The position numbers were made by a program, and so were the translations under genes. Positions 1 through 25,679 of a DNA stretch of 33,267 nt are shown piece after piece (positions within the stretch are counted from its first letter, which is position 1; every line of letters begins with the position of its first letter). The DNA is from a virus. Where the stretch lies: IMG/VR virus record IMGVR_UViG_3300003690_000053, positions 1 through 33,267 of that record, one strand, 5' to 3'. The notes below the pieces were generated by a model. The model was not told the DNA's origin and did not search any database. It saw nothing but the letters and a program-made list of their open reading frames with translations.

Positions 1-288
1 GTCAACTGGAATCTTATGCCTATTATCTGTCAGCTCTAATAAATATGAAACTATATCCTTTGAACATACGACTAGCTGAGAATACGAGTATTGATCTCCC
101 TTATTAATCGTCTTAATTCTACCACGCTTTCCGAAAACTGAATCACACCTATCTTGACAAGTCTCGCAAAAATCTATATCTTCTGATGTGATAGAAAACT
201 GATAAGTATTTTTACCATAATAAAGACAACCATCCCCAAGGCATGCACCAGTCAAATAACAAAAATCAGGAAGATTAGCTATGTTCAT
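1..288 (-). CDS. LAGLIDADG homing endonuclease, 5' part (runs off the window)
   Basis: An open frame of 96 codons begins at the ATG at 288 and is still open at position 1, so only the N-terminal part is visible. Residues 11-22 read YLTGACLGDGCL, which fits the first LAGLIDADG helix, with Asp19 as the expected metal-binding acid. The following residues (GKNTYQFSITSED, then a segment ending GKRGRIKTI) resemble the beta-rich part of such enzymes. The gene starts 42 nt after the intrinsic terminator of the capsid operon. A TATAAT on the minus strand at 295-300 lies just before the start and could be a -10 box, though I see no convincing -35. The Shine-Dalgarno (SD) sequence is weak. It is probably a free-standing homing gene and may be linked to the capsid introns next to it. 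The family call is fairly safe; the target is unknown. Confidence 0.72.
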   Translation of the reverse strand, partial: MNIANLPDFCYLTGACLGDGCLYYGKNTYQFSITSEDIDFCETCQDRCDSVFGKRGRIKTINKGDQYSYSQLVVCSKDIVSYLLELTDNRHKIPVD

Positions 289-329: not shown

Positions 330-360
330 TAAAAAAAGCCCAGTCATTTCTGACTGGGCT
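330..360 (-). terminator. Rho-independent terminator of the capsid operon
   Basis: On the minus strand a perfect 10-bp stem, AGCCCAGTCA / TGACTGGGCT, is closed by a GAAA tetraloop and followed by a run of about seven T. It lies about 35 nt after the stop codon of the third capsid exon. Read on the plus strand the hairpin is followed by only four T, so it mainly serves the minus-strand operon. Confidence 0.9.
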
Positions 361-377
361 TTTCAGATTGTCATAAC

Positions 378-405
378 TTCATTAGGTAGCATTCATTAGG
401 TAGCA
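378..405. repeat. 14-bp perfect tandem duplication over the capsid stop codon
   Basis: The plus strand carries ttcattaggtagca twice in direct succession (378-391 and 392-405). The second copy contains the capsid stop codon at 396-398, so the stop context is repeated just downstream. It looks like a replication-slippage product. Confidence 0.8.
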
Positions 406-464
406 GAAGTTACGTTAATTCTAGAAATTGCATAATCATTGACGATTGCAATTCCGATTTCTTC
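396..464 (-). CDS. Major capsid protein exon 3
   Basis: The 22 codons plus stop encode EEIGIAIVNDYAISRI and a short tail NVTSAT. This is the C-terminal strand region typical of this capsid family. It has no start codon of its own and is in frame with exon 2 only if positions 465-772 are removed. Confidence 0.85.
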   Translation of the reverse strand, partial: EEIGIAIVNDYAISRINVTSAT

Positions 465-1821
465 CGATTTGTTGCGCTAATGTCGCTTATACATTAGCTC
501 TCCATGTTTCCATGAAGACCAGACTATATCATTACCCTAATCTAATAGGGTACTCGGTATTTCGATTCCACTTGGAATCTACGGACAAAAGTCCTAGTCG
601 TTGAACGTTCTCCATTTTAAAGGAGCTTCGCTGCTGATTGCCTAATCTTTGTAATTTTCAAACTATCACGCTTACCTTTTCAAGTTACGTTGTAGTTTAC
701 AAAGCTCTAAAGGGTTTCCAGCAATTAACCGAGTTTTCATAATAGATTACTCTACTATGCTACGTTTCAAACATAGATCACCCACCCGAGCCTCAGCTTC
801 TGTGGGTCGTCTGCGGGGAGTACAGTGATGTCCTGGCGGATTGGAAAAGCCCCGACGTTTTCAGGGCTTGCAACCACCAAAACTGTGTTCTTCTCCATTC
901 TGGAACTGACGTGGATGTCCAATTCTGTTATCACCAAAGCTCTTTATCTTTGGTTTCTATACATTCCTGCATAGTTCAGACTATCTCTTACGCTGCTTTA
1001 CGCAGCGTTCCGGCGCTCGTGGGAGAATTTACTGACATATTTGATTTCTCAAACTTAGTCTCGTCTCCTAGTCGTTGCACGTTTTGAAAACTTTCGTTTT
1101 CAACTTCGCTCAAGGTTGTCCGTTCTGGATATTCCTTGAATTCACCGAATATGGCCAATTTCTCAGCCGTCCAGAGATGGCCGTATAGTCCTGTGGTAAT
1201 AACTTCACGTTGAGTTGCCTCATCGTAGAAGTCCTTACCGAATACACGGATGGTAGCATACTGATTAGCATGCGTCACGATTTTTGATGCGACTAGATCG
1301 TGCTGTTCGATCAAGCGGAAAGCGGTATTCAGCGAAGTCGTAGTCAAATCGCCAACATTAGTAACGATTTGATCTGCGCGACTGTCTGCGGCAGCCAGAA
1401 GGGCGTTGAAGATATTAGTATCTTCTTCCTTCTGGATAGCTTCCTTAGCTTTGATCTGTGCACGGTCTACGATGTAGAATCTGCGTGCTTTGATTTCACT
1501 CAAGCGAACTGTTGGGTATGCAGCGATTTCGAAAGTAGGAACAAGGAATTCCTCACCTTCTTGGATTTGCTGTGGGACACCACCTCTGCGCGAAACGATA
1601 TGCGCAATAGAGGCAACGTCTCTCTCATAGCGTGCGAGAGCGCCTTGTGGGAGCTCGTCAACCATGAGCAGTTTACGGCCAACCGCCTGATACTCAAGAC
1701 TTCTTCGGATAGGTTCTACCATGGCTTGTGCCAAAGCAACCCTACCTTCTTCGGTTTCGAGAGCTTGAGCAATAATCATTTCTTTATCTACATCAGAAAC
1801 ACTATCTTTCAAAAGAGGCAT
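396..1821 (-). CDS. Major capsid protein, three exons interrupted by two group I introns
   Basis: HK97-fold major capsid protein, the shell subunit of the head. The start is the ATG at 1821: an SD (AGGAG) lies about nine bases upstream and the protein begins MPLLKDSVSD. The longer reading from 1869 is not supported. Exons are 1821-1165 (219 codons), 919-773 (49 codons) and 464-396 (22 codons plus TAA). Joined, they give 290 residues in a single frame. Exon 1 holds the N-arm and core, including FEIAAYPTVRLSEIKARRF and GLYGHLWTA. Exon 2 continues DIHVSSRMEKN and contains FPIRQDITVLPADDP. Exon 3 ends EEIGIAIVNDYAISRI. Without splicing, exon 1 reads on into intron sequence to a stop at 988, giving a false tail of 58 residues. 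The gene lies downstream of the protease, scaffold and minor head genes, the usual head-gene order, and is followed by a terminator. Exon borders are inferred from homology of the pieces and intron structure. Confidence 0.9.
465..772 (-). ncRNA. Group I intron 2 of the capsid gene (308 nt, no ORF)
   Basis: Group I core elements are recognisable on the minus strand. There is a P4-type AATTGCTGGAAACCC (about 711-726) with a matching GCAAT further on, an R element CAACGACTAGGAC (591-603), and an S element GATATAGTC (522-530). P7 pairs GACTA with TAGTC. For P1, the 5' exon end CUAU pairs with GUAG in the intron, forming the standard U-G wobble at the splice site. The last intron base (465) is G, as expected. 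Removing it joins ...GWVIY to EEIGIA in frame. No homing gene lies inside. The call is strong; exact ends rest on P1 and the exon frame. Confidence 0.88.
773..919 (-). CDS. Major capsid protein exon 2
   Basis: Forty-nine codons run from DIHVSSRMEKN to LRLGWVIY, including FPIRQDITVLPADDP. This block is typical of the C-terminal half of the HK97-type capsid fold. It continues HLWTA of exon 1 exactly in frame once the 245-nt intron is removed, and it has no start or stop codon of its own. Confidence 0.87.
920..1164 (-). ncRNA. Group I intron 1 of the capsid gene (245 nt, no homing ORF)
   Basis: A compact group I intron. The R element CAACGACTAGG (1067-1077) and the S element GAGATAGTCTGAAC (974-987) supply the P7 GACTA/TAGTC pairing. 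The 5' exon end GGCU pairs with GGCC just inside the intron, with U-G at the splice site. The last base (920) is G. A perfect hairpin TTGAAAAC-GAAA-GTTTTCAA (1084-1103) sits where P6 is expected, and a CCAAAG...CTTTGG hairpin near the 3' end looks like P9. The block AGCGAAG-hairpin-AACGT-CAACGACTAGG is shared with intron 2, so the two are probably related. The P3/P4 assignment is less clear than in intron 2. Confidence 0.82.
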
Positions 1822-2012
1822 AACATTTTCTCCTAGTTCAGAGTTCGCATAATTACAAACCCTGAACACATAGTGTTCGACAAATTCATTTACTTGTCAA
1901 AGATCCTGTAAGTGTTCCCCTACACTGGTTCACACTTCAGCTTGAACAAAATAAATATTCAAGCAAGGAGAGCTATTCATACATAGGCTGAAGCCTACAT
2001 ACGTTCTCTAGT
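1822..2012 (-). promoter_or_regulatory. 191-nt leader before the capsid gene, with two hairpins
   Basis: This is the longest non-coding gap in the head cluster. It holds a perfect hairpin GAACAC-ATA-GTGTTC (1864-1878), a second hairpin TAGGC-TGAA-GCCTA (1984-1997), and AT-rich sequence. The second hairpin lacks a T-tract and so does not look like an intrinsic terminator. The region is a natural place for a capsid-specific promoter or mRNA leader, but I cannot point to a defined promoter. Confidence 0.35.
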
Positions 2013-5600: not shown

Positions 5601-6716
5601 CATTCCTGGAACTTGACCCATAGCGCCTGGAGGAGTTGGCAATGTTGCTCCAGCTCCTGGAGCTTGTGCAGCTCCACCTTGTCCTCCCATTTGTCCGCCC
5701 ACCATTTGGGCTTCTTTATAAGTTTTCTTTTCACCTTTAGCTTCTTTAACGATATCCTCTCGTTTTTTTGCAAGTGAAGAAGTTACCCGAGCTCCTCTAG
5801 CTCCACCGCCTGAAGCAACGCTTGTAGATGTCATAGATCCACCTGTCATATTTTTAGTTTTTTCTCTTCTTTCATGTTGATCATCAAATGGTCCTGCGAA
5901 TTCTTCTGCGAATTCTTCTCCTTCATCTAATGGTCCTATGAGTTCTGCTGCGGCAAGTTCATCTTCATCTGTGAGCATACTTTTATCTTTAAATATACCA
6001 CAGCCTGTTCCGTCAGTTCCGTCAGTTCCGTCAGTTCCGTCAGTTTCGTCAGTTCCTTTGTTCAATCTAATTTCCAAAACAACAGTTTGCGGGTTGCCAT
6101 TATCAGGGCCACCGATCATTTGCTGTCCAAACTTATAAACTGCCTGAGCAAAAGCTTTTTTATCTTTAGGATCTGCTTCAATTTCACTTAAAGCGAATCG
6201 GACTTCATACAGGCCATCTTCCGGTTTATTAATATCCTCGATAGCCTGTTCAAAGGCAGCGAATTTATCAACAGAAACGTTATCGACTTGCGTTTCTGCG
6301 AGTTTTTCTTGTACCAATTCATTAACTTTAGCTATTGCTTTCTTATTACCGAGTGAATATTCGATAGCTTCATAGACATCTTCTACTTTCACGCCATGTG
6401 TGCCATTTTTCGCAACGGAATAGATAAGTGCGTCGAGGTCATTAGGAGTATCTGCGCTTGAAGCCATTTTCTTGAAATAGGAGATATTATGTGTTATATC
6501 ATCAAGTTCTTCTCGCTTATAAGGAAGCGAATGAAGCAATGTCAAGAACGCAACCTTATCACTAGATTTATCATCATTAGCTAATGCAGCTGCTCGTTGC
6601 AATTCTTTTGGAGATTTGCTATATTTAGCGATAGCATCGGAGATAGATTGAGTAGCAATCTTAATAACTTCCTTACTATATCCGGCGCTTGGCGCTTGCC
6701 CAGCGTTTAATACCAT
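2613..6716 (-). CDS. Giant acidic scaffold-like / internal head protein with MGHE repeats
   Basis: A 1367-residue protein I cannot match to a named family. Residues 1-200 are mostly helical. Residues 221-238 are a Thr-Asp-Gly repeat. Residues 340-390 are Gly/Pro-rich. CxxC pairs suggest zinc binding at 401/404 with 418/421, at 559/562, and at 873/874/877 with 885/888. Residues 735-860 are extremely acidic. Residues 911-957 are a Gly/Ala amphipathic stretch. Six MGHE motifs follow at 1037, 1059, 1083, 1171, 1193 and 1220. The last 110 residues are helical and end ALKKVFGKI. The gene lies between protease and capsid, the usual scaffold position, and its start overlaps the protease end by 41 bp. 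The SD is weak. A scaffold or internal head role is inferred from position, acidity and repeats. It could instead be a packaged protein with several zinc modules. Confidence 0.7.
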   Translation of the reverse strand: MVLNAGQAPSAGYSKEVIKIATQSISDAIAKYSKSPKELQRAAALANDDKSSDKVAFLTLLHSLPYKREELDDITHNISYFKKMASSADTPNDLDALIYSVAKNGTHGVKVEDVYEAIEYSLGNKKAIAKVNELVQEKLAETQVDNVSVDKFAAFEQAIEDINKPEDGLYEVRFALSEIEADPKDKKAFAQAVYKFGQQMIGGPDNGNPQTVVLEIRLNKGTDETDGTDGTDGTDGTGCGIFKDKSMLTDEDELAAAELIGPLDEGEEFAEEFAGPFDDQHERREKTKNMTGGSMTSTSVASGGGARGARVTSSLAKKREDIVKEAKGEKKTYKEAQMVGGQMGGQGGAAQAPGAGATLPTPPGAMGQVPGMESFTAAPGPGAEGLEGTEDLEPKPPGSICVVCGSSDVDIVSGKGKCNNCSSEMQFKVSVDVTRWANLTPEAEEGGERDEGLGEGEGFELPEMGGGGDMGMGVGAENVGLAAMVRLQPQSIKKLAKSEIKIGSVSPANGKTNTVSLGKGNWYCLDTGTSYKVSYAADMKTKMAYAQWEWTPRTPNGDCPSCNRAKLRFVKALKVQDITEEQFDAFDIQKKTETILKMKKAGSLKNIKIASKDESDVIAQYKKAYHTYGNDFPMETCLEKLSRRFGENALALSGPCEGKSLAPCVCASLSKAGMYNSNLAIKVAEVWEDNDGSDCCVEDQIRLGLNIKDAGAACEALKIAMASQEDILADKLAQLVEEDDMGDDMGDDMDVDPFEEEEEEVGDEMGDEDADADVSVEVGDVGGEMVTLEIPKEVLLEFDAAADVALGSDPTDDLGPGDEVAVDVDVEEVPGEEEVPGEGEVIDDAPPAESIEDIEDVGDVIEEGKPMAAAGDCCPECGAPMEDECPTCGEPKDNPADEGDQYVEGEGEEKSMLGGLARGAAGAIGGAAEAVGGIASGTGEAIGGVAEGIGKAVGALATGEDTEASSEYDLKEAMHMQGSIGKTQDIQLDLAEVAKAIGIQTKEAGEKEIQQENVQDGENTKPYSAGNPADGGHASEMGHENEAVSTATTPTVPRDNALMGHEDSDLNPQDKPQPHIPSDKGTMGHEDEVGLEGGDARYTGGDEGAGKTNIAQSEEEILEAELLHMRGHGNAKNRLAVMAQRILDAQNKKLEPKKPVADDEDIKPIKGNTTMGHEPEFTAETPTNTETANDSHMGHERETVGDKPTSPKDHPELPADNALMGHEEGGEIGPEKQTRDKGTVIASGDIKPEVLIESRKLAFSVAAQMLQNDLIEVSQLETKVEELAKYEPAQIKDFQNAIAKQASEGKKGLPTESRGLEQPLVINEKSSLRNSNDELQTKLSSLFSLHQQNEAATETPDFALKKVFGKI
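3048..3608 (-). repeat. Six MGHE motif repeats in the scaffold-like protein
   Basis: The tetrapeptide MGHE, almost always followed by acidic residues, occurs six times in residues 1037-1223. It is usually preceded by a small or polar residue pair (NALMGHE twice, GTMGHE, TTMGHE, SHMGHE). On the plus strand this appears as repeated tcatgtcccat-like words. Spacing is irregular (22 to 88 residues), so these look like short linear motifs in a disordered tail. Confidence 0.85.
6003..6056 (-). repeat. 9-bp tandem repeat encoding Thr-Asp-Gly
   Basis: GGAACTGAC-type 9-bp units are repeated about six times with one variant unit, encoding residues 221-238 of the scaffold-like protein. It is likely slippage-prone and forms a flexible linker. 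Confidence 0.85.
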
Positions 6717-9700
6717 AGTCTTGATCTTTAAATTGTCCTTCTGTAATAACCTCGGAAGGTCCGACGAAGCGGTGAGTGCTTAAAAGTTCTCTCAGTTGCT
6801 TTTCGGTGATTATTTCTGTCCAATCATCTGGCAATTTAGCACTAGCTAGACGGCTGAAATCTGTCCATTGTTTTTCAGTGATAACTTCTGGCCAATCTTT
6901 CCAACGAGTAACATATCCATCAGTAATAGAATCAAGTTGTCCTTGTGTAATAACGTCATAAGAGCCTCTACGTGTCTGAGGGGACTCGCTAGTTGTGTCA
7001 TCTAGTTCATCAGCGTCTTTTTCACCAGAAATTTCAGCTTCTGTGATTTGTTCCCAAGTTTCATTTGTTCTTGGATGCAAGTCAGCATTTTCTGAGCTAG
7101 AAAGCTGTTTTTCTGTAATCACTTCTTGCTGAGCATCGCTATCGTTAGCTGGATTTCCAACTGCCGCAGTTTTATCTGTTTCTTTAATTGCAGTTTTGTT
7201 TGTTTCTTTAGTTCCTGGCATGACGTTAATTAACTCCTTGTTGGCCAAAATTTCTTTTCCGGCTTTTTCCGGATCACTATCAATCATCTTTTGAATATCT
7301 TCAGGAAAAGTAGACACATTCGCAGAGCGAATAATCTTTTCTCCTTGGGCTTCTATAACCATTGTTCCGTCTGCTGACGTTTTATCAATAACAATGCGAC
7401 GAACTTCTTTGTCGGAAGGATCGCCATCAAACACTTCTATATAAGTTTTAGACACACTAGAGCTCCTAGAGAGTTTATTTGCATTAAGATTCTTAATCTT
7501 ATCCCTTACTTTAGAAGAAGATGCAAATAAATCCTTCTTTTTATTTATGAAATTAGAGGAAAATTTTGGTTTAATTACTGACCCAAGTCCAGACATATCT
7601 TGAATAGATATTCCAGATGGAGTAACTTGAGTAGTTGTAGCACCTATAGGAGGTGGTGCTTGCTGTCCAGGTTGCACTGGTTGAGCTGGTTGAGCATCAG
7701 GAGATTGAGGAGTTGTATCTCCTATAGCTTCAACTGTTGGAGATGGAAGTTGAGCATATCCCATTTCTGAGAGTTCATCAACAATACCTTGAACGTCAGC
7801 CATTGCTTTAACAAGATCGCTAACATATTCCATCGATATCTCATTTTTCTGAGCAAGCATGCTTTTAACGACTTTTTCCATGCCACTCATGCTTTCAGTA
7901 AGATTAGTTAATTCGTCTTGTCCTGCGACCTTCTTTAATTTCGAATCATCATTACCTCTTGTCATTTGTAGTTGAGCAATAGCTTTTTTAAGTTCAGCAA
8001 CCTTTTTGGTAACATTTGGAGCGTGTAAGATATCACATACACCGCATCTATGACATGCAGGGTTAACAACGAAGCTATTTTCAATAAATTTTAGACCGAA
8101 GTTGTGTTCAAAGATTTGTTGTTCTTTATAATGATTTATCTTGCTTTCGCTTCGTTTTTTACCGCAAATGGGACAAGGTTCTTCTCCTGCATCTTCTCCG
8201 TCGTGATATTCACAATTATAATCGCCAGATACTTTACGATTCTTGCGATTTTTAACATGATCACAATATTCATCTGCTGTGGGAGATTTTTTGTGGCAAA
8301 CAGAACAGACAGAATAATCGACAGAACAATTATGAGTAGCAATATCGTTTAATATATAACTATGATCGCTTTCCTCATTATTGAGGCTTCCAACCTGAAT
8401 GTAATAAGTTGGTTCGTCATTCTCTATTATTTCAACTTCTTTGACTCTATGTGCAACATATTTGTCGTAGAAAAATGAATCAAACTTTGACTGCTTAGCT
8501 TTTTTATTTACATTAGCTTTTCTTGATTGACCAGATAATACATCGCTAATAGTATTTGTAAAATAAAGCATGTATTCCACGTATTCGAAATCATTATCAA
8601 TAACAGTTGACGTTGACGCTGAAGCTATGCGCTCATGTCTTGATAAAGTAGCAGGAACACCTAGATTCAAAGATATTTTTCTAACACCCGAAAGCAGATC
8701 ATTTGAAGCCGATGATAACTGCAAAGCTCCTGATTCACTCGATCCTTTTTTAGTTGATCTCTCCTGAACAATACAACCATCGCCATCGAGGTAAGCACCT
8801 AAAAACGTTTTTTGGGTAATAAAAGATTCGTTTCTTAATAAATTAGAAACCTTCTTAACTTTGCTACCAGTGCCAATGTGTTTAAGACAAATTTCGGCTA
8901 GGTCTGGATTCCACGTTGTGATGTATACGCCATTTCTATCAGCAACTTTTCTTTCATGAACATTATTTTCTGGATATCTCTTTTTCAGAGCTTCTTGTAA
9001 TTGGCCTTTAAGTGGATCGTTTAATCCGAAGCTGAAACCAACCGTAGACTGGCTGACCCAACCTTCGGCAGCATATACTCCCAAAATAAATGCTAACTTA
9101 TTATCCAGATTTGCATGATATTCAGAAAAAACATACTTATCCAATATCTCTAAAACATGATCTCCCTCTTTCACAAGACTGGCTTTTATAAAAGCGGGCT
9201 TAACCGTCTTATTAATTTCGGAAATATTTTTTCTATATTTTTTTCCAGATTTCGTTGTATAGTGCAGATCAGAACCTCGTAACACCAAAACAGGATGTTC
9301 GCAGCTTAATGCAAGCCCTGATTTTTTACCACTCCATTTAATATGATAAAGTTGTTTATGATCTTGTGTCTTACAAATGGTGTGAATCTTTTCAATCTTG
9401 CCAGTATGAGTTGCAACTTGATCGCTCTTCTTCAATTCATCAACACGTTTCAACGAAAGATCACCCATTGTTACTAAATCATGTCCACGACTAGCTCCCA
9501 TTGAAGTTCCAGTGCAATATTTTTCCTCTATACTTCTGGCTAATGATGGATATGCAACTTTGTCAATACGGGCGAGAATAAAGATGCCACCTTCTTTATC
9601 ATCATACCAAGAATGGACACATTCGCCCCTTGCATTTTCTACTTCACTATTCTGATGGTTTGTAAAGACAGGAACGCCAATGAAGGTATGAGCTGCTTTT

Positions 9701-9954
9701 TTTAGTTCTGCTTCACAGAAAGCATCACCATTGTCATTAACAATGTCTTTTTCGATAGCAAAGATTTTGACGAAAAGATGATCGGGATACTTATCAATAG
9801 AGGCTTGAATATCGAAACCACCGTACTTGTTTTCTTCTGCTTCTTTGACAGAAGCAGTCTTAATCATTTCTGGCAATACGAATATATCCCAATCTTTGGG
9901 ATGATTCAAAGGTTCTATCGTAAAACTATTAAATGCTATTTTTTTAAATGACAT
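6676..9954 (-). CDS. Prohead protease with an intein and a long repeat-bearing C-terminal tail
   Basis: A 1092-residue precursor; removal of the intein (residues 154-542) would leave 703 residues. The protease domain of the T4 gp21-like type spans 1-153 plus 543-650. The presumed catalytic His100 lies in FTNHQ and Ser151 in CTGTSMG. After the intein the domain resumes CSVDYSVCSVCHKK and holds further Cys pairs (594/597, 634, 637/640) that suggest zinc binding. Residues 650-735 are helical, 735-780 Pro/Gln-rich, and 944-1075 carry six VITEKQ-like repeats. The protease matures head proteins inside the prohead. The long tail suggests that protease and scaffold-binding functions are fused. The N-terminus MSFKKIAF follows an AT-rich sequence with only a weak, distant SD. 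Confidence 0.9.
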   Translation of the reverse strand: MSFKKIAFNSFTIEPLNHPKDWDIFVLPEMIKTASVKEAEENKYGGFDIQASIDKYPDHLFVKIFAIEKDIVNDNGDAFCEAELKKAAHTFIGVPVFTNHQNSEVENARGECVHSWYDDKEGGIFILARIDKVAYPSLARSIEEKYCTGTSMGASRGHDLVTMGDLSLKRVDELKKSDQVATHTGKIEKIHTICKTQDHKQLYHIKWSGKKSGLALSCEHPVLVLRGSDLHYTTKSGKKYRKNISEINKTVKPAFIKASLVKEGDHVLEILDKYVFSEYHANLDNKLAFILGVYAAEGWVSQSTVGFSFGLNDPLKGQLQEALKKRYPENNVHERKVADRNGVYITTWNPDLAEICLKHIGTGSKVKKVSNLLRNESFITQKTFLGAYLDGDGCIVQERSTKKGSSESGALQLSSASNDLLSGVRKISLNLGVPATLSRHERIASASTSTVIDNDFEYVEYMLYFTNTISDVLSGQSRKANVNKKAKQSKFDSFFYDKYVAHRVKEVEIIENDEPTYYIQVGSLNNEESDHSYILNDIATHNCSVDYSVCSVCHKKSPTADEYCDHVKNRKNRKVSGDYNCEYHDGEDAGEEPCPICGKKRSESKINHYKEQQIFEHNFGLKFIENSFVVNPACHRCGVCDILHAPNVTKKVAELKKAIAQLQMTRGNDDSKLKKVAGQDELTNLTESMSGMEKVVKSMLAQKNEISMEYVSDLVKAMADVQGIVDELSEMGYAQLPSPTVEAIGDTTPQSPDAQPAQPVQPGQQAPPPIGATTTQVTPSGISIQDMSGLGSVIKPKFSSNFINKKKDLFASSSKVRDKIKNLNANKLSRSSSVSKTYIEVFDGDPSDKEVRRIVIDKTSADGTMVIEAQGEKIIRSANVSTFPEDIQKMIDSDPEKAGKEILANKELINVMPGTKETNKTAIKETDKTAAVGNPANDSDAQQEVITEKQLSSSENADLHPRTNETWEQITEAEISGEKDADELDDTTSESPQTRRGSYDVITQGQLDSITDGYVTRWKDWPEVITEKQWTDFSRLASAKLPDDWTEIITEKQLRELLSTHRFVGPSEVITEGQFKDQDYGIKRWASAKRRI
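6730..7125 (-). repeat. VITEKQ-type repeats in the protease C-terminal tail
   Basis: Six related motifs occur in residues 944-1075: EVITEKQL, EQITEAEI, DVITQGQL, EVITEKQW, EIITEKQL and EVITEGQF. They are separated by 16-25 variable residues, mostly polar. The regular [DE]-[VIQ]-I-T-[EQ] core followed by a hydrophobic residue looks like an amphipathic binding motif repeated for avidity. Confidence 0.85.
8329..9495 (-). mobile_element. LAGLIDADG intein in the prohead protease (389 aa, Ala1, Cys+1)
   Basis: Residues 154-542 of the protease ORF form an intein. Block A is ASRGHDLVTM, with Ala where Cys or Ser is usual. Block B is SCEHPVLVL with His220. Two LAGLIDADG helices are ILGVYAAEGW (about 290-299) and FLGAYLDGDG (384-393). 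Blocks F and G are TYYIQV and ILNDIATHN, ending in His-Asn followed by Cys+1. Removal joins CTGTSMG to CSVDYSVC. Ala1 with Cys+1 resembles class 2 inteins such as KlbA, where Cys+1 attacks the N-terminal junction directly. The endonuclease acids appear intact. Confidence 0.93.
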
Positions 9955-9968
9955 ATTAATTAACTATC

Positions 9969-10406
9969 CTATGACAAAGAAGGCCATGCGTGAACATTCT
10001 TGCTTCTACATTCGCGATTGGTGCAAGTCGCCTCAGATCCTATAGCAAGCATTCTGTTCAATTCATCCGTAAACACTGTTCCGCAATCTTTACACCTCCA
10101 ATACTTAGGACGCGATTCATTGACATCCTTTTCTTGCACCTGTGCTGTTCTTTTATTTCTTCGCTTTTGCAATGCTTGTGCATACACATGAACTTCATCT
10201 TGATAGAATCCAGCTTTAGGTCCGTTAGGCATAGCCTCTAATGCTGCTTTCGCATCTCGTATACCATATCTCAAAACCTCTTCTGGCTGTTGTTCAGCCC
10301 ATGCTTCAGCAGCAGCAAAGTCAAGAGATACAGTTCCATCTGCAAGGGGTGGCATTTCAAACTTTGCGGAATTTTTTACATAACCTGCCGATTTAATTGT
10401 TTTCAT
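9969..10406 (-). CDS. Leader-family protein with a C-terminal zinc ribbon
   Basis: A 145-residue protein beginning MKTIKSAGYVKN, the leader shared with neighbouring genes. The middle is helical (FAAAEAWAEQQPEEVLRYG, then KAALEAMP). The C-terminal part has four cysteines at 105, 108, 128 and 133 in CKDC and CTNREC, a likely zinc ribbon. It ends 14 nt before the protease start. It is probably a virion or head-assembly protein, judging only from context and the leader. No enzyme signature is visible. Confidence 0.75.
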   Translation of the reverse strand: MKTIKSAGYVKNSAKFEMPPLADGTVSLDFAAAEAWAEQQPEEVLRYGIRDAKAALEAMPNGPKAGFYQDEVHVYAQALQKRRNKRTAQVQEKDVNESRPKYWRCKDCGTVFTDELNRMLAIGSEATCTNRECRSKNVHAWPSLS

Positions 10407-10971: not shown

Positions 10972-11311
10972 TCACGCTTGTCCTGTGTTTATGGGCCATA
11001 TCTCTTGCAATCTCAACTAAATTATCAGCTAATTCATTCATTAATTCTGGTGTCATTTGTTCCATATTTTTTGCGAAAAATCTTACGGACAAGGCTACAC
11101 TTTGCAATCTTTCGGCAGGCGTGTCTTTTATACCGGGACTTGGATCATCGTCAGTATTTGGATCAAGCATTTCAGCCTGATCAATAGATTCACCAAGACT
11201 CGGTTCGGCGGGTGGCAGCTTCTGAGATTGCTTCATCCAGTCGTCGTAATCTGCTTTCTGCGGATCATCATGCTCGCCCCATCTAGCATTAAGACTTTGC
11301 TCCCTTGTCAT
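10958..11311 (-). CDS. Downstream half of a leader-family gene split by a 35-bp duplication
   Basis: A 117-residue frame starting MTREQSLNARWGEHDD, without the MKxIKSA leader its neighbours have. Its C-terminal half (PSPGIKDTPAERLQSVAL, then VRFFAKNMEQMTPELMNEL) is closely similar to the 76-residue protein at 11933-12163. Deleting one copy of the adjacent 35-bp repeat fuses it in frame behind the ORF at 11317-11649. It is therefore probably the 3' half of a former gene of about 215 codons. The ATG lies inside the repeat and may allow re-initiation five bases after the upstream stop. Confidence 0.65.
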   Translation of the reverse strand: MTREQSLNARWGEHDDPQKADYDDWMKQSQKLPPAEPSLGESIDQAEMLDPNTDDDPSPGIKDTPAERLQSVALSVRFFAKNMEQMTPELMNELADNLVEIARDMAHKHRTSVNEIN

Positions 11312-11372
11312 TCCTTCTACCCTAATGGCCCATTCACCCTTGTCATTCCTTCTACCCTAATGGCCCATTCAA
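11303..11372. repeat. Perfect 35-bp tandem duplication
   Basis: Two identical 35-bp copies (11303-11337 and 11338-11372) lie head to tail over the junction of two ORFs. The unit length is not a multiple of three, so the duplication shifts the frame and produces the TAG at 11317-11319. Confidence 0.95.
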
Positions 11373-11649
11373 TGGCACTCTTCTCATCAGTAATACCTTC
11401 CTCCTTCAACTCTGCTGCTATCTCAACATCTTCCATAGCCTCATCAATTGTAGTGAGAGAACCACGTCCAACTCTGGGGTTGGCTCTAATAACATCAACA
11501 AGAGGTCGCATTTCTACTAGCAGTTGAGCTTTCTGTTGTTCACTTAATTCATGAGCCCATACTGCTATTTTTCTCATGGGAATAATTTTGTAAAGAAATT
11601 TTTTAAAGTATGTCAATACGTTATATCTTGCTGATTTAATTATTTTCAT
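11317..11649 (-). CDS. Upstream half of a leader-family gene split by a 35-bp duplication
   Basis: A 110-residue frame beginning MKIIKSARYNVLTYFKKF, with the shared leader. A helical segment (HELSEQQKAQLLVEMRPLVD) and an acidic region follow. The last residues VNGPLG are encoded by the second copy of the 35-bp repeat and are probably an artefact of the frameshift. Without the duplication the frame would read ...EWAIRVEGMTREQSLN... and continue for another 116 codons. Function is unknown; it may still be made as a shortened protein. Confidence 0.68.
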   Translation of the reverse strand: MKIIKSARYNVLTYFKKFLYKIIPMRKIAVWAHELSEQQKAQLLVEMRPLVDVIRANPRVGRGSLTTIDEAMEDVEIAAELKEEGITDEKSAIEWAIRVEGMTRVNGPLG

Positions 11650-11656
11650 TTGCTAT

Positions 11657-11932
11657 TTACCCTGTATACCTTACTTTGCCCTGTAGAGAGTCCACATCAT
11701 CTGCCATTCTTATTAAATTGCTTGCCATCTCTCTTAACTGGGCGGCGAATGTAGGACCAGTATCATCTATAGGCTGAAGATCCTTAGGGGTAATTGCTCC
11801 TTCACCATCCCAACCCTCGGGAATCGTGCCTTGACCTTTCTTTGTCCATCCCTGCTCTTTTCCTATCTTCTGCCATTCAGATTTAGATAGTTTTAATTGT
11901 GTTTTACCCGATGCGTTTTTAATTAGTTTCAT
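11657..11932 (-). CDS. Leader-family small protein
   Basis: A 91-residue protein starting MKLIKNASGKTQLKLSKS, a divergent copy of the shared leader. A lysine- and glycine-rich middle (EWQKIGKEQGWTKKGQG) is followed by a C-terminal helical segment (FAAQLREMASNLIRMADDVD). That segment resembles the end of the neighbouring 76-residue protein in layout. The ATG directly follows the TAA of the gene upstream with no spacer. Function is unknown. Confidence 0.75.
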   Translation of the reverse strand: MKLIKNASGKTQLKLSKSEWQKIGKEQGWTKKGQGTIPEGWDGEGAITPKDLQPIDDTGPTFAAQLREMASNLIRMADDVDSLQGKVRYTG

Positions 11933-12536: not shown

Positions 12537-13046
12537 CTAAGCCCCAGTTGCATTCTTTACATAATAGATTTCATCTTCAATACTCCCCCTTACGTGCCTA
12601 GGTATTTTGATATTTGCTAAATCATGAACTGTATAATTAGATACCCCTTTAGGAAAAGGCACTGCCCATCGATCTGCAGCAAAACTTAATGCAGCATGCA
12701 AACTAGAAAAGTATTCTCCTGAGGGAGCATATATTTTCTTCTTCTCGTCTTGTGGTAATCTTTTGATACCGGCAAAGAATTGTTTCTTCAAGTCTTTTGT
12801 TAGTGCAGGACCAACAACAATAAAATAATCACCATTTGTAGTATAGTCGTGCCCCTCCCAACGATGATATGAGCCACTTCCCAATTCTCTATCATAACGC
12901 TTCTTTAATGGCGCAGACTTATCATGATAGAACTCTTCCCATTTGATGCCTCTGTCACGAATGCGTTTTCTGCCCTTCAGACTGCCTTTAGGCGGGGGAA
13001 GGTAATTCCTTGCTTGTTTGTGTTCTTTCAGGTTGAAGCTGGCCAT
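12537..13046 (-). CDS. Unknown protein overlapping the portal 3' end
   Basis: The protein is 169 residues from the ATG at 13046 (MASFNLKEHKQARNYLPPP); the longer frame needs a TTG start. The first 59 nt overlap the end of the portal gene in another frame. A basic N-terminal stretch (KGSLKGRKRIRDRG) is followed by a mixed alpha/beta region with many Tyr, Trp and His (SGSYHRWEGHDYTTNGDYF). The N-terminal FNLKE resembles FNLKKAQ and FNLSKTAQ found in the large ORF at 17081-18721. No family is recognised; it is probably a virion protein by context. Confidence 0.7.
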   Translation of the reverse strand: MASFNLKEHKQARNYLPPPKGSLKGRKRIRDRGIKWEEFYHDKSAPLKKRYDRELGSGSYHRWEGHDYTTNGDYFIVVGPALTKDLKKQFFAGIKRLPQDEKKKIYAPSGEYFSSLHAALSFAADRWAVPFPKGVSNYTVHDLANIKIPRHVRGSIEDEIYYVKNATGA

Positions 13047-16000
13047 TAGTCTCTGGTTCTCCAATTAATATTCGTTTTCCTAGTCCATTATCCAATTCGC
13101 TAACAGAAACAGTAATTGTTTCCTCGTCTCCATTTGCAGCAAATCTAGTTCCAGGCAACTTTAAAGAAGCAAATTTCTCAAATGTCGTATCGTTTTCAGC
13201 TGCCTTCTTAAGATCTTTTGCTGCTTCCGTTATATTTTGCAAGATAACATCTTTAATAGTATCAATGTGTTCTTCAACTGCTTCCTCTTTAAATCTTAAT
13301 ATTCTCCATCCAACATTAGCAAGTTTCTGGTCTCTTTGCATATCTCTTTCTTTTAAATCCTCTCGTTCATGCCACATCTTTCCATCTGTTTCAATGCCTA
13401 TTCCAATTTCAGGATAAGCAAAATCTAAACTAAATGGTTGTTGCTGCCCAGGCAATTTGATAGCATATTGTCCAAACAAGGCAAATGGCACATTTAAACC
13501 ACTTAGGACTTTATACATCTTTTGCTCTATCTTTGTTAGGCGCATAACCCTTGTCGGCACTGGTTCTTGCCCTGCTTGTTCTCTTGCTTTGCCTCTTTTT
13601 GGAATTGCTAATCCTGCATCAGCTGATGCGGCAGCTGGCATGCCACCACCAGGAGGTGCACCCATGCCACCACCAGGAGGTGCACCCATGCCACCACCAG
13701 GAGGTGCACCCATGCCGCCCATTTCAGCTCCCGGCATACCTAGAGGGGCACCTTCTATGCCCATTGCTCCTTCTGCTCCTGGCGGGCCTCCTAATCCTCC
13801 ACCCATTGGCATTCCACCTCCTCCCATTGCACCTTCTGCTCCACCTGCACCGGGCATAATCTGCCCACTTTGCATTGCAACTAGTCGTTCTTCTCGCAAT
13901 CTCTCTTGTTCAATATCATAATCTAGCTCGAACTCTTCACAAATTGTTTGACCAGAAACTAATTCTTTGTCATAAACTTGCATAAGCAATTGCAAATTAC
14001 TAGATTTATCACGAAGCTTAAGATCATTCCATTTTATAGTAGGATATATATATTTAGGTTTTCCTACTATTTTAGATTCTTCTTCATCAATAAATCCTTG
14101 CATCATTGCAATAGGCAAGAATATATGTTTTTCAACCCACTTCGCAAGTTTTGATTGCCATCTTTCTAAACGTTTAATCAAAATCTCAACGCCAACCTGA
14201 GCCGAGGTATAACCGGCCGCTTCGCCATTCAGCAAAGCTTGATTAAGCATAAACCCATCTAATACTTCTTTGCCAATGTTTTCCATCTCGGAAGTAATGT
14301 TGTGAATCTTGCTTGTGGCACCCTCCCAGCTATATTCAAATGCGTGGTGGGTAACAATTGTCATATTAGGATCATTAACAACAGCAGATAATTGACTCTG
14401 GACATTTGAGATATCATCGTCAGAAGCCGGACGATCTTTGTCGCCAACTTTAACAATGCGAACAGGCAATATAAGTCGCTCAGCAGTAATCCAGTTTGCA
14501 GTCATAATTTTAGTTTTATAAGCTAAGATAGTAAACATGCGACGTAGCAATGGACTACTATAAGTTGCATAAGAACTAGCATTATGTTTAATATGGCTTA
14601 CAGAACGATTAGATAGTGGAATAGGTCTGCCAGATGCAACTAAATCAATAAGCTTAGGATCTAGCCTGTCATAAATTTGTTTAGGCTCTCTACGCTGCAC
14701 AAGCATTCTAAGCTCTTCATCAGGCATTAAAGCAAGAACTGGTTCTTTTGCTAGAACATTCGTTTGCACTTCAACATAATCTGGATTCATAAGAACAACA
14801 CGACTAAATGAACCACCTTTATGATTGCATTGTTCTCCTTCTCGATCAGTGCCTGATCCACCACAATGTTCACATTCAATTTCCAAGAAAGGAAATACAT
14901 CGCCTAATAAATAATACTCATGACTTATATGAGCAAGCCAATCTTCCAGATCTAAATCTTCTACAGCTTGCTCAAAATACTTACAAATCTTCTTGCTTCT
15001 AGATTCAAGCTTGAATCCTGAAAGTGGGAAATTCGCGTAAAAATCTACACCTGCTGCAACCTTAGGTTCGTTGTCATACCAGAAGCGGCAATTAGAAGCT
15101 ACATACCCTGATGCAACAAATGCACGTTCAGGATCAATTTGAAGATCATAACCTTTGCCAGTATACTTGAATTCTCTTATTTTCTGTATAGGCTGGGCTA
15201 AATATGTTACTCCATCTTCTTCATAGAAAAATCGAAGCTGACGCTGAGGCTTTGGCTTGAAGCCCTGTGGAATCTTGCTGCTGCGCAAGTAAGGCTGTAA
15301 TTTAGGAACTTCCGAAGACGGAATAATTATTCGATAACACCATTCAGAATCAGTCTCGTAGTGTTCGCCATAAAGTGGCAAACGCTTTAATGAACAGTTT
15401 ATACCTACAGACAATAACATCCAATATAGCTGATCTGCCATATCGCAAGAATAATTGTTAGCAACTAACAACCCCTTTGGTGGAGAAAAATGTCCATCAC
15501 CATCAAAATAACCACCAAGAACATGGAGGCGGGACTCTTTATCTAATTCAAAAACATCAGCACGGAATTTCTTTTTAGTTAATTTACCAGTGATATAAGT
15601 ATCAAAAAATTCCCAGATATCTGTTCCACTTTGAGAAACCCTCCATCCGTTTCCGTCTCCATGCTGAAAAGATCTGGTTTTTCCATCAAAACTATGTTGA
15701 GACCATTTTTCTAATTCTGGCACATGATACTCATTGCGATCCATAGTGAAATCAACACGGCATGAATGCTCTGGTTTTGTTAAACAGCCATCAGCAATAC
15801 ACAGCCCAACCATCCACGCTTTATTTGTATCTAAAGCAATTTTGCCTAATTTAGGCATAGGAGCAATTAGCAAATCGTCTTTGACGATATCTTGTGCTTC
15901 TCTTTTGTATATCAATTTATCTGGAAATTCTATCGGTGGTTTATCGCCGCCTGCGGGTATGCCTATCTTCCTGCGATACGCAGCATCTTTTTCGAGCTTT

Positions 16001-16581
16001 CTTTTATGGCGATAAAGTTTTCCGTCAATGACAAAAATCTTATGTTCTTCAGAAACTTCTAGAGTTCTCCAATAACCATAAGCACTAAAACCAAAGCATC
16101 GCTTGTCTGTGCAACTTCTCTCTGAAAAATGAGGTGGACGACGTAATTTGCCGCTCGCCCCTAACACAGGCTCGGATTTAATGTCTTGATACCACATTCC
16201 ATTCGTTACCGGATCTTTAACAACTTTATCATAATCAAAAAGCAGATCTTCGACACGTTTTGTGGTATAGTCATTTAACGTAAGTCCTGTTCCAGCAAGT
16301 ATTTTCCACTGATAGCTCTCCCTTCTCTTACTTGCGATTTGCCAATTTTGTGGTGTATGCAGAGGCGAGAAGAACATAGGTTGGGTGAAAATAACATTTG
16401 CACCGGAACCGGCGAACTGTGCCATTTTAGTGATTGGTGTATTTGCTACTGTGCCAACAGGAAATTGCTGAGTCATAGGCACATCTTCAGAAACGGTTGG
16501 AGCTACAATTTCACCACCAGCAGCCTTTGTCATCATTGCTCTGGTTTGTTTATCTGGTAAGTTAACTCTGATTGGTGCCAT
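12988..16581 (-). CDS. Portal protein with an intein and a C-terminal Vsr/DUF559-like nuclease domain
   Basis: A 1197-residue precursor; removing the intein (residues 93-497) leaves 792 residues. The portal forms the DNA-entry ring of the head and docks the terminase. Portal sequence covers 1-92 and 498 to about 900, with CRFWYDNEPKVAAGVDFY after the splice site, a Cys/His cluster (C570, C573, C585, H587) and the stem/clip region with GFMLNQALLNGEAAGYTSAQ. Residues 905-985 are a Gly/Met/Pro-rich linker. Residues 1012-1120 are a PD-(D/E)XK domain of the DUF559/Vsr type: LDF with Asp1053, IETDGK with Glu1064, Asp1066 and Lys1068, then RDQKLANVGWRILRF. The last 75 residues are unassigned. The gene lies well downstream of the terminase. 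The portal and nuclease calls are strong; what the nuclease does in a portal is unknown. Confidence 0.92.
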   Translation of the reverse strand: MAPIRVNLPDKQTRAMMTKAAGGEIVAPTVSEDVPMTQQFPVGTVANTPITKMAQFAGSGANVIFTQPMFFSPLHTPQNWQIASKRRESYQWKILAGTGLTLNDYTTKRVEDLLFDYDKVVKDPVTNGMWYQDIKSEPVLGASGKLRRPPHFSERSCTDKRCFGFSAYGYWRTLEVSEEHKIFVIDGKLYRHKRKLEKDAAYRRKIGIPAGGDKPPIEFPDKLIYKREAQDIVKDDLLIAPMPKLGKIALDTNKAWMVGLCIADGCLTKPEHSCRVDFTMDRNEYHVPELEKWSQHSFDGKTRSFQHGDGNGWRVSQSGTDIWEFFDTYITGKLTKKKFRADVFELDKESRLHVLGGYFDGDGHFSPPKGLLVANNYSCDMADQLYWMLLSVGINCSLKRLPLYGEHYETDSEWCYRIIIPSSEVPKLQPYLRSSKIPQGFKPKPQRQLRFFYEEDGVTYLAQPIQKIREFKYTGKGYDLQIDPERAFVASGYVASNCRFWYDNEPKVAAGVDFYANFPLSGFKLESRSKKICKYFEQAVEDLDLEDWLAHISHEYYLLGDVFPFLEIECEHCGGSGTDREGEQCNHKGGSFSRVVLMNPDYVEVQTNVLAKEPVLALMPDEELRMLVQRREPKQIYDRLDPKLIDLVASGRPIPLSNRSVSHIKHNASSYATYSSPLLRRMFTILAYKTKIMTANWITAERLILPVRIVKVGDKDRPASDDDISNVQSQLSAVVNDPNMTIVTHHAFEYSWEGATSKIHNITSEMENIGKEVLDGFMLNQALLNGEAAGYTSAQVGVEILIKRLERWQSKLAKWVEKHIFLPIAMMQGFIDEEESKIVGKPKYIYPTIKWNDLKLRDKSSNLQLLMQVYDKELVSGQTICEEFELDYDIEQERLREERLVAMQSGQIMPGAGGAEGAMGGGGMPMGGGLGGPPGAEGAMGIEGAPLGMPGAEMGGMGAPPGGGMGAPPGGGMGAPPGGGMPAAASADAGLAIPKRGKAREQAGQEPVPTRVMRLTKIEQKMYKVLSGLNVPFALFGQYAIKLPGQQQPFSLDFAYPEIGIGIETDGKMWHEREDLKERDMQRDQKLANVGWRILRFKEEAVEEHIDTIKDVILQNITEAAKDLKKAAENDTTFEKFASLKLPGTRFAANGDEETITVSVSELDNGLGKRILIGEPETNGQLQPERTQTSKELPSPA
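13640..13711 (-). repeat. 24-bp tandem repeat (three copies) in the portal linker
   Basis: Three perfect copies of a 24-bp unit encode GMGAPPGG-type repeats inside the flexible linker that separates the portal body from the nuclease domain. The wider linker is also Gly/Met/Pro-rich. Confidence 0.93.
15091..16305 (-). mobile_element. LAGLIDADG intein in the portal protein (405 aa, Lys1, Cys+1)
   Basis: Residues 93-497 of the portal ORF. Block A is KILAGTGLTL, which aligns without gaps to the protease intein start, placing Lys at position 1. Block B is VSEEHKIFV with His180. LAGLIDADG helices are MVGLCIADGC (about 257-266) and VLGGYFDGDG (354-363). Blocks F and G are GYDLQI and FVASGYVASN, so the penultimate residue is Ser instead of His, followed by Cys+1. 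Removal joins RESYQW to CRFWYDNE. Homing endonuclease acids are present. A Lys1 intein is unusual; splicing would have to proceed by direct attack of Cys+1. Confidence 0.9.
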
Positions 16582-24464: not shown

Positions 24465-24949
24465 CACGCAACTTTCAAGGGCAAAATATTGCCACAAGTA
24501 GAGCATCTAGCGGGCTCAAAACGACTCCACCACTGGTCTTCATGTGTACTAGCTGTTCTAATTTTACGACTAGCAGTCACAGTAGGTTGCTTTGATGTAG
24601 CTAGAGCTTTTTCATAATCAATAGTTTCATTGTCATTTTCAAATATAGACTTGTTATCACCGAGAACCATTACGCGAATAACTTCAGCGCCTTTATTAGT
24701 AATTTCAATCTTATCACCAACACTTTTTACAAGTCCTGATTTTTCCATCGTTATAATTTCTTCGCGAGACATTGTAGTGGGTCTACGATACAACCTGTTA
24801 TTAATTTTACTATCTTCATCTTTCCATATATTAAACAGATTTTTAGCAGCTTTAGGGTTCACAAGATCCTTGGCTTTTAATTGTTTAGTGATTTCTGGAA
24901 CGAGTATAACTAAATAATCAAAAAAAGATTGTCCAAATGTATTATGCAT
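24464..24949 (-). CDS. Winged-helix-like protein with a C-terminal CxxC
   Basis: A 161-residue protein. Its ATG overlaps the end of the HNH gene by eight bases. Residues 58-95 (TTMSREEIITMEKSGLVKSV, then KIEITNKGAEVIRVM) have the helix-turn-strand pattern of a winged helix. The C-terminus has one CSTCG pair, a possible partial zinc site. Nucleic-acid binding is possible but not shown. The rest is not recognised. Confidence 0.65.
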   Translation of the reverse strand: MHNTFGQSFFDYLVILVPEITKQLKAKDLVNPKAAKNLFNIWKDEDSKINNRLYRRPTTMSREEIITMEKSGLVKSVGDKIEITNKGAEVIRVMVLGDNKSIFENDNETIDYEKALATSKQPTVTASRKIRTASTHEDQWWSRFEPARCSTCGNILPLKVA

Positions 24950-25679
24950 ATTCTTTCTTTCTGTTCTTGTCTAGCCATTCCTCTGTTTGTTTTGGCATGG
25001 GCCTGTTTCCACAATCAAAATGAAGATGTCTATGACAATTGGCACATAAAAGAACACACTTGCCCATCTCTTCTTGTATCCTCTTCAAATTGTATTTACG
25101 GCTGATCATCTCATTAATGGCTATCTTTTTTGACTCTGGATCCGTATGATGAAAATCTAAACAAAACCATCTACTCTCTCCACACGCCTCACACTGACAT
25201 TGCTTTTTATAATCTATTAACCACTGTTGTCTTTCTTGCTTTAAAAAACGAGCTTTAATATTTACTTTCTCTGTGTTATTTTGACGATACCGCTTGCTAC
25301 TGTCCCTATCTTTCTGTTTTCGACGTTCAGTTTTTTGTAGTTCTTCTTTCTGATGCTTCTTGGTTTGCGGTTTAATATTAAGATTATAATACTTCTTCTG
25401 GGCTTTCTGTCTCTTTCGTTCACGCTCAGCACCTTGACATTGCTCAGACCTGCAACAACCTCCATTAATTTCAGAATAACAGAACATCTTTTTACAATGT
25501 CTGCATTTCTTTCTGTTTGCAAAATAAATCTTGCTTCGCAATCGAACATTTAATTTTCTGGCTTCTTTTGAACATTCCTTAGAACAATATTTACGTCGCA
25601 CATGGCTTGAAACAAACGTGGCACTGCACAATGGACATGTTTTCGATATCTTATCTATTTCAGTATTTGTAAGTTCCAT
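24942..25679 (-). CDS. HNH endonuclease, probably a free-standing homing enzyme
   Basis: A 245-residue protein. Several N-terminal Cys pairs suggest zinc modules (C15/C18, C32/C36, C59/C62, C75/C76/C81). A long Lys/Gln/Arg-rich helix follows (about 84-150). The C-terminal HNH domain has CQCEACGE, LDFHHTDP with His177/His178, and LLCANCHRHLH with Asn214 and His216. It sits between two unrelated small structural genes and overlaps the next gene by eight bases, as expected for a mobile gene that inserted without breaking the operon. The neighbours look intact. No intron is visible around it. Confidence 0.88.
   Translation of the reverse strand: MELTNTEIDKISKTCPLCSATFVSSHVRRKYCSKECSKEARKLNVRLRSKIYFANRKKCRHCKKMFCYSEINGGCCRSEQCQGAERERKRQKAQKKYYNLNIKPQTKKHQKEELQKTERRKQKDRDSSKRYRQNNTEKVNIKARFLKQERQQWLIDYKKQCQCEACGESRWFCLDFHHTDPESKKIAINEMISRKYNLKRIQEEMGKCVLLCANCHRHLHFDCGNRPMPKQTEEWLDKNRKKEYA

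Follow-up and report, generated by a model that had tools for sequence, protein, structure and literature searches.

In an uncultured giant phage related to Bacillus phage G, sequence analysis indicates that two group I introns, self-splicing, free of endonucleases and independent of each other, very probably interrupt the major capsid protein (MCP) gene. The in silico evidence demonstrates ribozyme cores and splice-site hallmarks, and shows that removing the introns restores a conserved protein to the base; we infer that splicing takes place inside the infected cell with an efficiency sufficient for capsid supply.

Capsid gene layout and the restored reading frame

The window (the whole stretch analyzed, a 33,267-base virus record) carries a block of head genes on its minus strand, namely those for terminase, portal, a protease-like protein, a large acidic protein, a small presumed decoration protein and the capsid protein; the neighbors of the capsid gene are open frames. 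A plain ORF scan reported a frame at 1869..988 (-), with the MCP ATG at 1821. From this ATG, the frame comprises 219 capsid codons and then 58 intron codons, in agreement with an earlier sequence-only reading, in which the visible ORF ended at 988 with a nonsense tail. The same reading placed the missing C-terminal part of the protein downstream in two pieces; the two pieces are there, but they make up 71 of 290 residues, a quarter of the protein rather than the third that was claimed.

Table 1. Features of the capsid region in the window, and insertion sites in the MCP genes of relatives (by codon).
Feature	Position	Strand	Details
MCP exon 1	1165..1821	-	codons 1-219, 657 nt; ATG at 1821; 3' end ...GGACGGCT
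Group I intron 1, predicted	920..1164	-	245 nt; RF00028, fold z, P1, frame
MCP exon 2	773..919	-	codons 220-268; 147 nt, a multiple of 3
Group I intron 2, predicted	465..772	-	308 nt; RF00028, fold z, likeness to Serratia phage 2050HW
MCP exon 3	396..464	-	codons 269-290 and stop; 69 nt including stop
Terminator-like hairpin, A and T runs on flanks	331..364		between MCP and downstream ORF; read from sequence
Free-standing LAGLIDADG-type homing endonuclease gene, 5' part	1..288	-	cut by window edge; homologues 37-64% identical
MCP insert	33/34		L061 and L062 (identical over the stretch), L253, probably L059 (contig starts inside insert)
MCP insert	within 44		L216
MCP insert	55/56		L216, L245, L248, L259
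MCP insert	within 115		L216
MCP insert	121/122		L253

Removal of 1164-920 and 772-465 yields an MCP of 290 residues with its stop at 396. Intron 1 starts with GAGAAATTGGCC and ends in GAATTG, intron 2 starts with GTTTGAAAC and ends in AAATCG, and both are phase 0, with each junction falling between codons. The joined junctions read GGACGGCT/GACATCCA (exon 1 to exon 2) and GTGATCTAT/GAAGAAATC (exon 2 to exon 3). The spliced product, which the sequence-only reading had proposed to align to capsid families, matched the PHROG 2522 major head protein with an E-value of 2.5e-66 over residues 13-283, and its homology to phage G-like HK97-type major capsid proteins (PHROG 2522; gp27) extends over the whole length. 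Bacillus phage G gp27 is 53% identical to the MCP from end to end, but is intron-free; gp27, for which a structure has been solved (6wkk), also matched the MCP of a close relative (E 6.5e-96).

Relatives were fetched from IMG/VR by three queries (exon 1, exons 2-3 and a distant member), and the resulting 221 loci held 101 distinct MCP sequences that are uninterrupted through the whole protein. Eight close intron-free relatives were printed base by base, and in all eight codon 219 continued into 220 and codon 268 into 269 without a base gained or lost. Because these relatives are exactly continuous, both splice sites are fixed to the base with little room for chance, and the intron limits (920-1164 and 465-772) and the 290-residue product first read from the sequence were confirmed. 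Compared with the nearest intron-free relative, pN/pS was 0.12 for exon 1, 0.08 for exon 2 and 0.29 for exon 3; these values are rough, with synonymous sites near saturation, and span the whole branch to the relatives, beyond the time since insertion. The values of 0.08 and 0.29 nevertheless suggest that exons 2 and 3 are constrained, which fits the spliced product. Since both exons look purified like exon 1, the MCP is very probably spliced and functional.

Ribozyme features of the two introns

The Rfam group I intron covariance model (RF00028, curated cut-off 50 bits) matched the region of intron 2 at 782-500 (-) with 104.7 bits (E 2.1e-26), and that of intron 1 at 1186-957 (-) with a far lower score of 61.4 bits (E 2e-13). 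No other RNA family rose above the cut-off in an Rfam scan of the whole 33-kb window. The two group I introns that had been read from the letters were thus recovered by Infernal and Rfam. Two outcomes named beforehand as contrary to that reading, namely no group I match at either place, or related phages whose MCP ends at the equivalent of position 988, were both looked for and neither was found.

The hallmarks claimed for both introns (R and S elements with P7, P1 with U-G at the splice site, and a final G) were all present. In P1 of intron 1, the exon 1 end GGCU pairs with intron GGCC, and in P1 of intron 2, the exon 2 end CUAU pairs with GUAG; in each case the last base of the 5' exon is a U that lies opposite a G of the guide sequence, forming the U-G pair at the splice site. 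The RF00028 alignments span the model from end to end and placed P3-P9 in both introns, with the same P7 strands (GACUA/UAGUC) in the R/S core, and both introns fold more stably than dinucleotide shuffles (energy z of -6.2 for intron 1 and -5.6 for intron 2). Between the P7 5' strand and the P3 3' strand, intron 2 has two hairpins (P7.1/P7.2) and intron 1 has one long imperfect stem; these extra hairpins behind the P7 5' strand may point to subgroup IA. No P10 pairing of at least 4 bp was found at either intron. Also as first read, neither intron contains an endonuclease ORF, for which 245 and 308 nt leave no room, and they are therefore not of the mobile, endonuclease-encoding kind. In the transcript, each intron would fold, a guanosine would attack the 5' splice site marked by the U-G pair, and the exon ends would be joined after the terminal G to give an mRNA for the 290-residue HK97-type capsid protein.

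Capsid gene insertions and endonucleases in relatives

In this clade, the MCP gene has been invaded at seven sites, the two in the window and five in relatives (Table 1), with up to three introns per gene. Neither the 101 distinct uninterrupted MCPs nor the interrupted ones have an intron at the window's two sites. The interrupted relatives (L061/L062, L216, L245, L248, L253 and L259) resemble the window in having group I-type inserts in the same gene of the same clade, but differ from it in the sites and in that most of their inserts hold LAGLIDADG-type ORFs, named here from translation motifs. The inserts at 55/56 are mutually homologous, and L248 has a shrunken copy without an intact endonuclease. 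In L216 (800-4216), the MCP gene has three group I-type inserts, the first two separated by a 35-nt exon. RF00028 matched all three L216 inserts, one in L062 and one in L253 below its curated cut-off; over 80 relative records, it gave weak matches only in those of L061/L062, and a permissive Rfam scan of five relative loci returned nothing. Silence of the model was not taken as absence because it is too insensitive, having missed L245, L248 and L259. At 33/34, a clean junction would need A, not U, at -1, and the boundary given there is approximate. As a set, the seven sites show higher conservation than positions drawn at random (p 0.0004), although the window's two sites taken singly lie only at the 76th and 79th percentile of conservation. 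A search of the literature found no report of recurrent invasion of a phage G-like capsid gene at seven sites, and this recurrence is a more interesting result than the pair in the window.

The ORF at 288-1 (-) matched Pfam LAGLIDADG_3 (PF14528) weakly (14.9 bits, below the Pfam cut-off); we base the label LAGLIDADG-type on its motif, position and homologues. Homologues lie directly downstream of the MCP gene in at least six relatives (L043, L049, L062, L066, L215 and L259); they surfaced only from MCP loci, and exact peptide patterns for relatives of the ORF found none in viral contigs. In collaborative homing, an intron without an endonuclease relies on a free-standing one to cut its empty site, and the window has the same published arrangement of a free-standing endonuclease beside introns without one (PMC3984707, PMC10448857). 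The downstream LAGLIDADG enzyme might thus cut intron-free MCP genes at the intron sites or close by, allowing the introns to spread with it, and the recurrence of the gene at the same spot in relatives would agree with this. However, four of those relatives (L043, L049, L066 and L215) carry the endonuclease while both window intron sites are empty, the window's own copy is cut off at the window edge, and the enzyme may simply home into the intergenic spot. Because relatives have the gene with both sites empty, we offer endonuclease help in homing only as a hypothesis, and consider it unlikely.

A ~400-575-residue endonuclease-like gene of another kind was seen in L007 (3348-4934) and about 15 other relatives, often just downstream of the MCP gene, and the position behind the capsid gene looks like a hotspot for endonucleases. 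In L071, the MCP gene is intact and two small ORFs downstream of it (10187-10381 and 11091-11723) have capsid pieces of 30-40 residues (residues 241-272 and 42-79) inside otherwise unrelated proteins.

Elsewhere in the window, the protease-like head protein (6676-9954, -) has an intein-like insert with LAGLIDADG_3, with the end ...ILNDIATHNC followed by SVDYS..., and a free-standing HNH endonuclease ORF lies at 24942-25679 (-; PHROG 2255, E 3.9e-22). The portal protein (12988-16581, -) has a LAGLIDADG intein-like insert near its N-terminus and, at its C-terminus, a DUF559/MTES_1575 (PD-(D/E)XK-like) nuclease-type domain with the pattern D...IETDG...H. All 12 of the large IMG/VR relatives that were tested have this domain, in most cases within a frame of ~750 aa, and in the one relative opened (L368) it was fused to the portal. 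Phage G lacks the domain, the phage collection gave no match to it, and the portal-nuclease fusion looks unusual.

Alternative products, intron origin and known systems

The exon 1 frame stays open for 58 codons into intron 1 (988-1164), up to a stop at 990-988 just before the P7 3' strand; at least 55 open codons were seen in 1.8% of base shuffles. By contrast, intron 2 has an in-frame UGA at its second codon, and the inserts of relatives that were checked likewise differ from intron 1 in this respect. Many phage introns stop the upstream frame early, an arrangement believed to shield the ribozyme from ribosomes (PMC3984707). As the exon 1 frame is open through the core of intron 1, translation could hinder the splicing of this intron. 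Ribosomes and the splicing of intron 1 may therefore be in competition, a feature that was noticed post hoc and may be due to chance.

The open frame also raises the idea that the introns serve to give alternative products, either a putative 277-residue variant by read-through of intron 1 or, by skipping of exon 2, a 241-residue one with the junction GGACGGCT/GAAGAAATC, which the 49 in-frame codons of exon 2 between two phase 0 introns would allow. We judge this very improbable: no relative has an intron at either of the window's two sites, and the skipped form would lack residues that are highly conserved, among them G242 and R247. It is likewise very improbable that intron 1 is a translation-gated switch on capsid supply, in which ribosomes compete with splicing and early or crowded translation gives the 277-residue protein instead.

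The sequence-only reading took a core block common to both introns, GTKCAACGACTAGGA, as a sign that one was derived from the other or from a common source. Derivation of one from the other was not supported: the block is a generic core motif of phage group I introns, seen in viral contigs in at least 120 stretches, and duplication within the MCP gene is hardly credible. Blast of each intron against the other and against ~200 loci spoke against such derivation, with a single significant match of 18 nt between the two and a much closer relative elsewhere, in unrelated phages, for each. Among phage records, intron 2 is closest to an intron of Serratia phage 2050HW (77% identical over 232 nt), which, unlike that of the window, lies between pieces of an RNA polymerase beta gene and has an endonuclease ORF immediately upstream of the core that matched. 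Intron 2 is also 71% identical over 248 nt to an MCP intron of the crAss-like phage cr118_1, and almost the whole of intron 1 can be aligned, at 66% identity, with an intron-like stretch of a viral contig (L090). The two introns therefore look like separate arrivals. They probably came independently, either homing to or reverse splicing into conserved codons of a gene that is a repeated target of the clade's mobile introns, and both may have lost, or never had, their own endonuclease. As for the inserts being inert and the MCP broken, as in a defective phage or prophage or a contig with a pseudogene copy, exon 1 alone is indeed not a full capsid protein, but this is scarcely believable given base-exact inserts with intact ribozyme cores, second and third exons that are free of stops and frameshifts and purified like the first, and open adjoining head genes.

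Group I introns in phage capsid genes, one or several per gene, have been published before. The major capsid gene of mycobacteriophage LittleE has a self-splicing, probably group I, intron, whose splicing was shown by RT-PCR and protein size; it differs from the window in being a single intron of ~819 bp with an HNH endonuclease, in an unrelated phage and capsid (PMC3706429). In crAss-like phages (record cr118_1, MT774379), the MCP is likewise split by group I introns, in one case into five fragments separated by group I intron domains, but the MCP family and the insertion sites are different, and of the four inserts in that case three have coding sequence for intron-type domains, unlike those of the window (Yutin 2021, PMC7886860). 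The presence of two endonuclease-free introns in one MCP gene, singled out as notable in the sequence-only reading, stands, although its novelty needs tempering in view of these published multi-intron capsid genes. Phage Twort is cited, in PMC6669764, for a gene with several introns and for exon skipping, and intron-rich huge phages have been described (PMC12363816).

With seven sites and up to three introns in the same 870-base gene, these capsid genes form a natural series well suited for asking how an mRNA needed in abundance can tolerate several ribozymes, and how introns lose or gain endonucleases. Gene finders will call a truncated capsid protein here, so that jumbo phage genomes of this kind drop out of capsid-based trees and marker counts.
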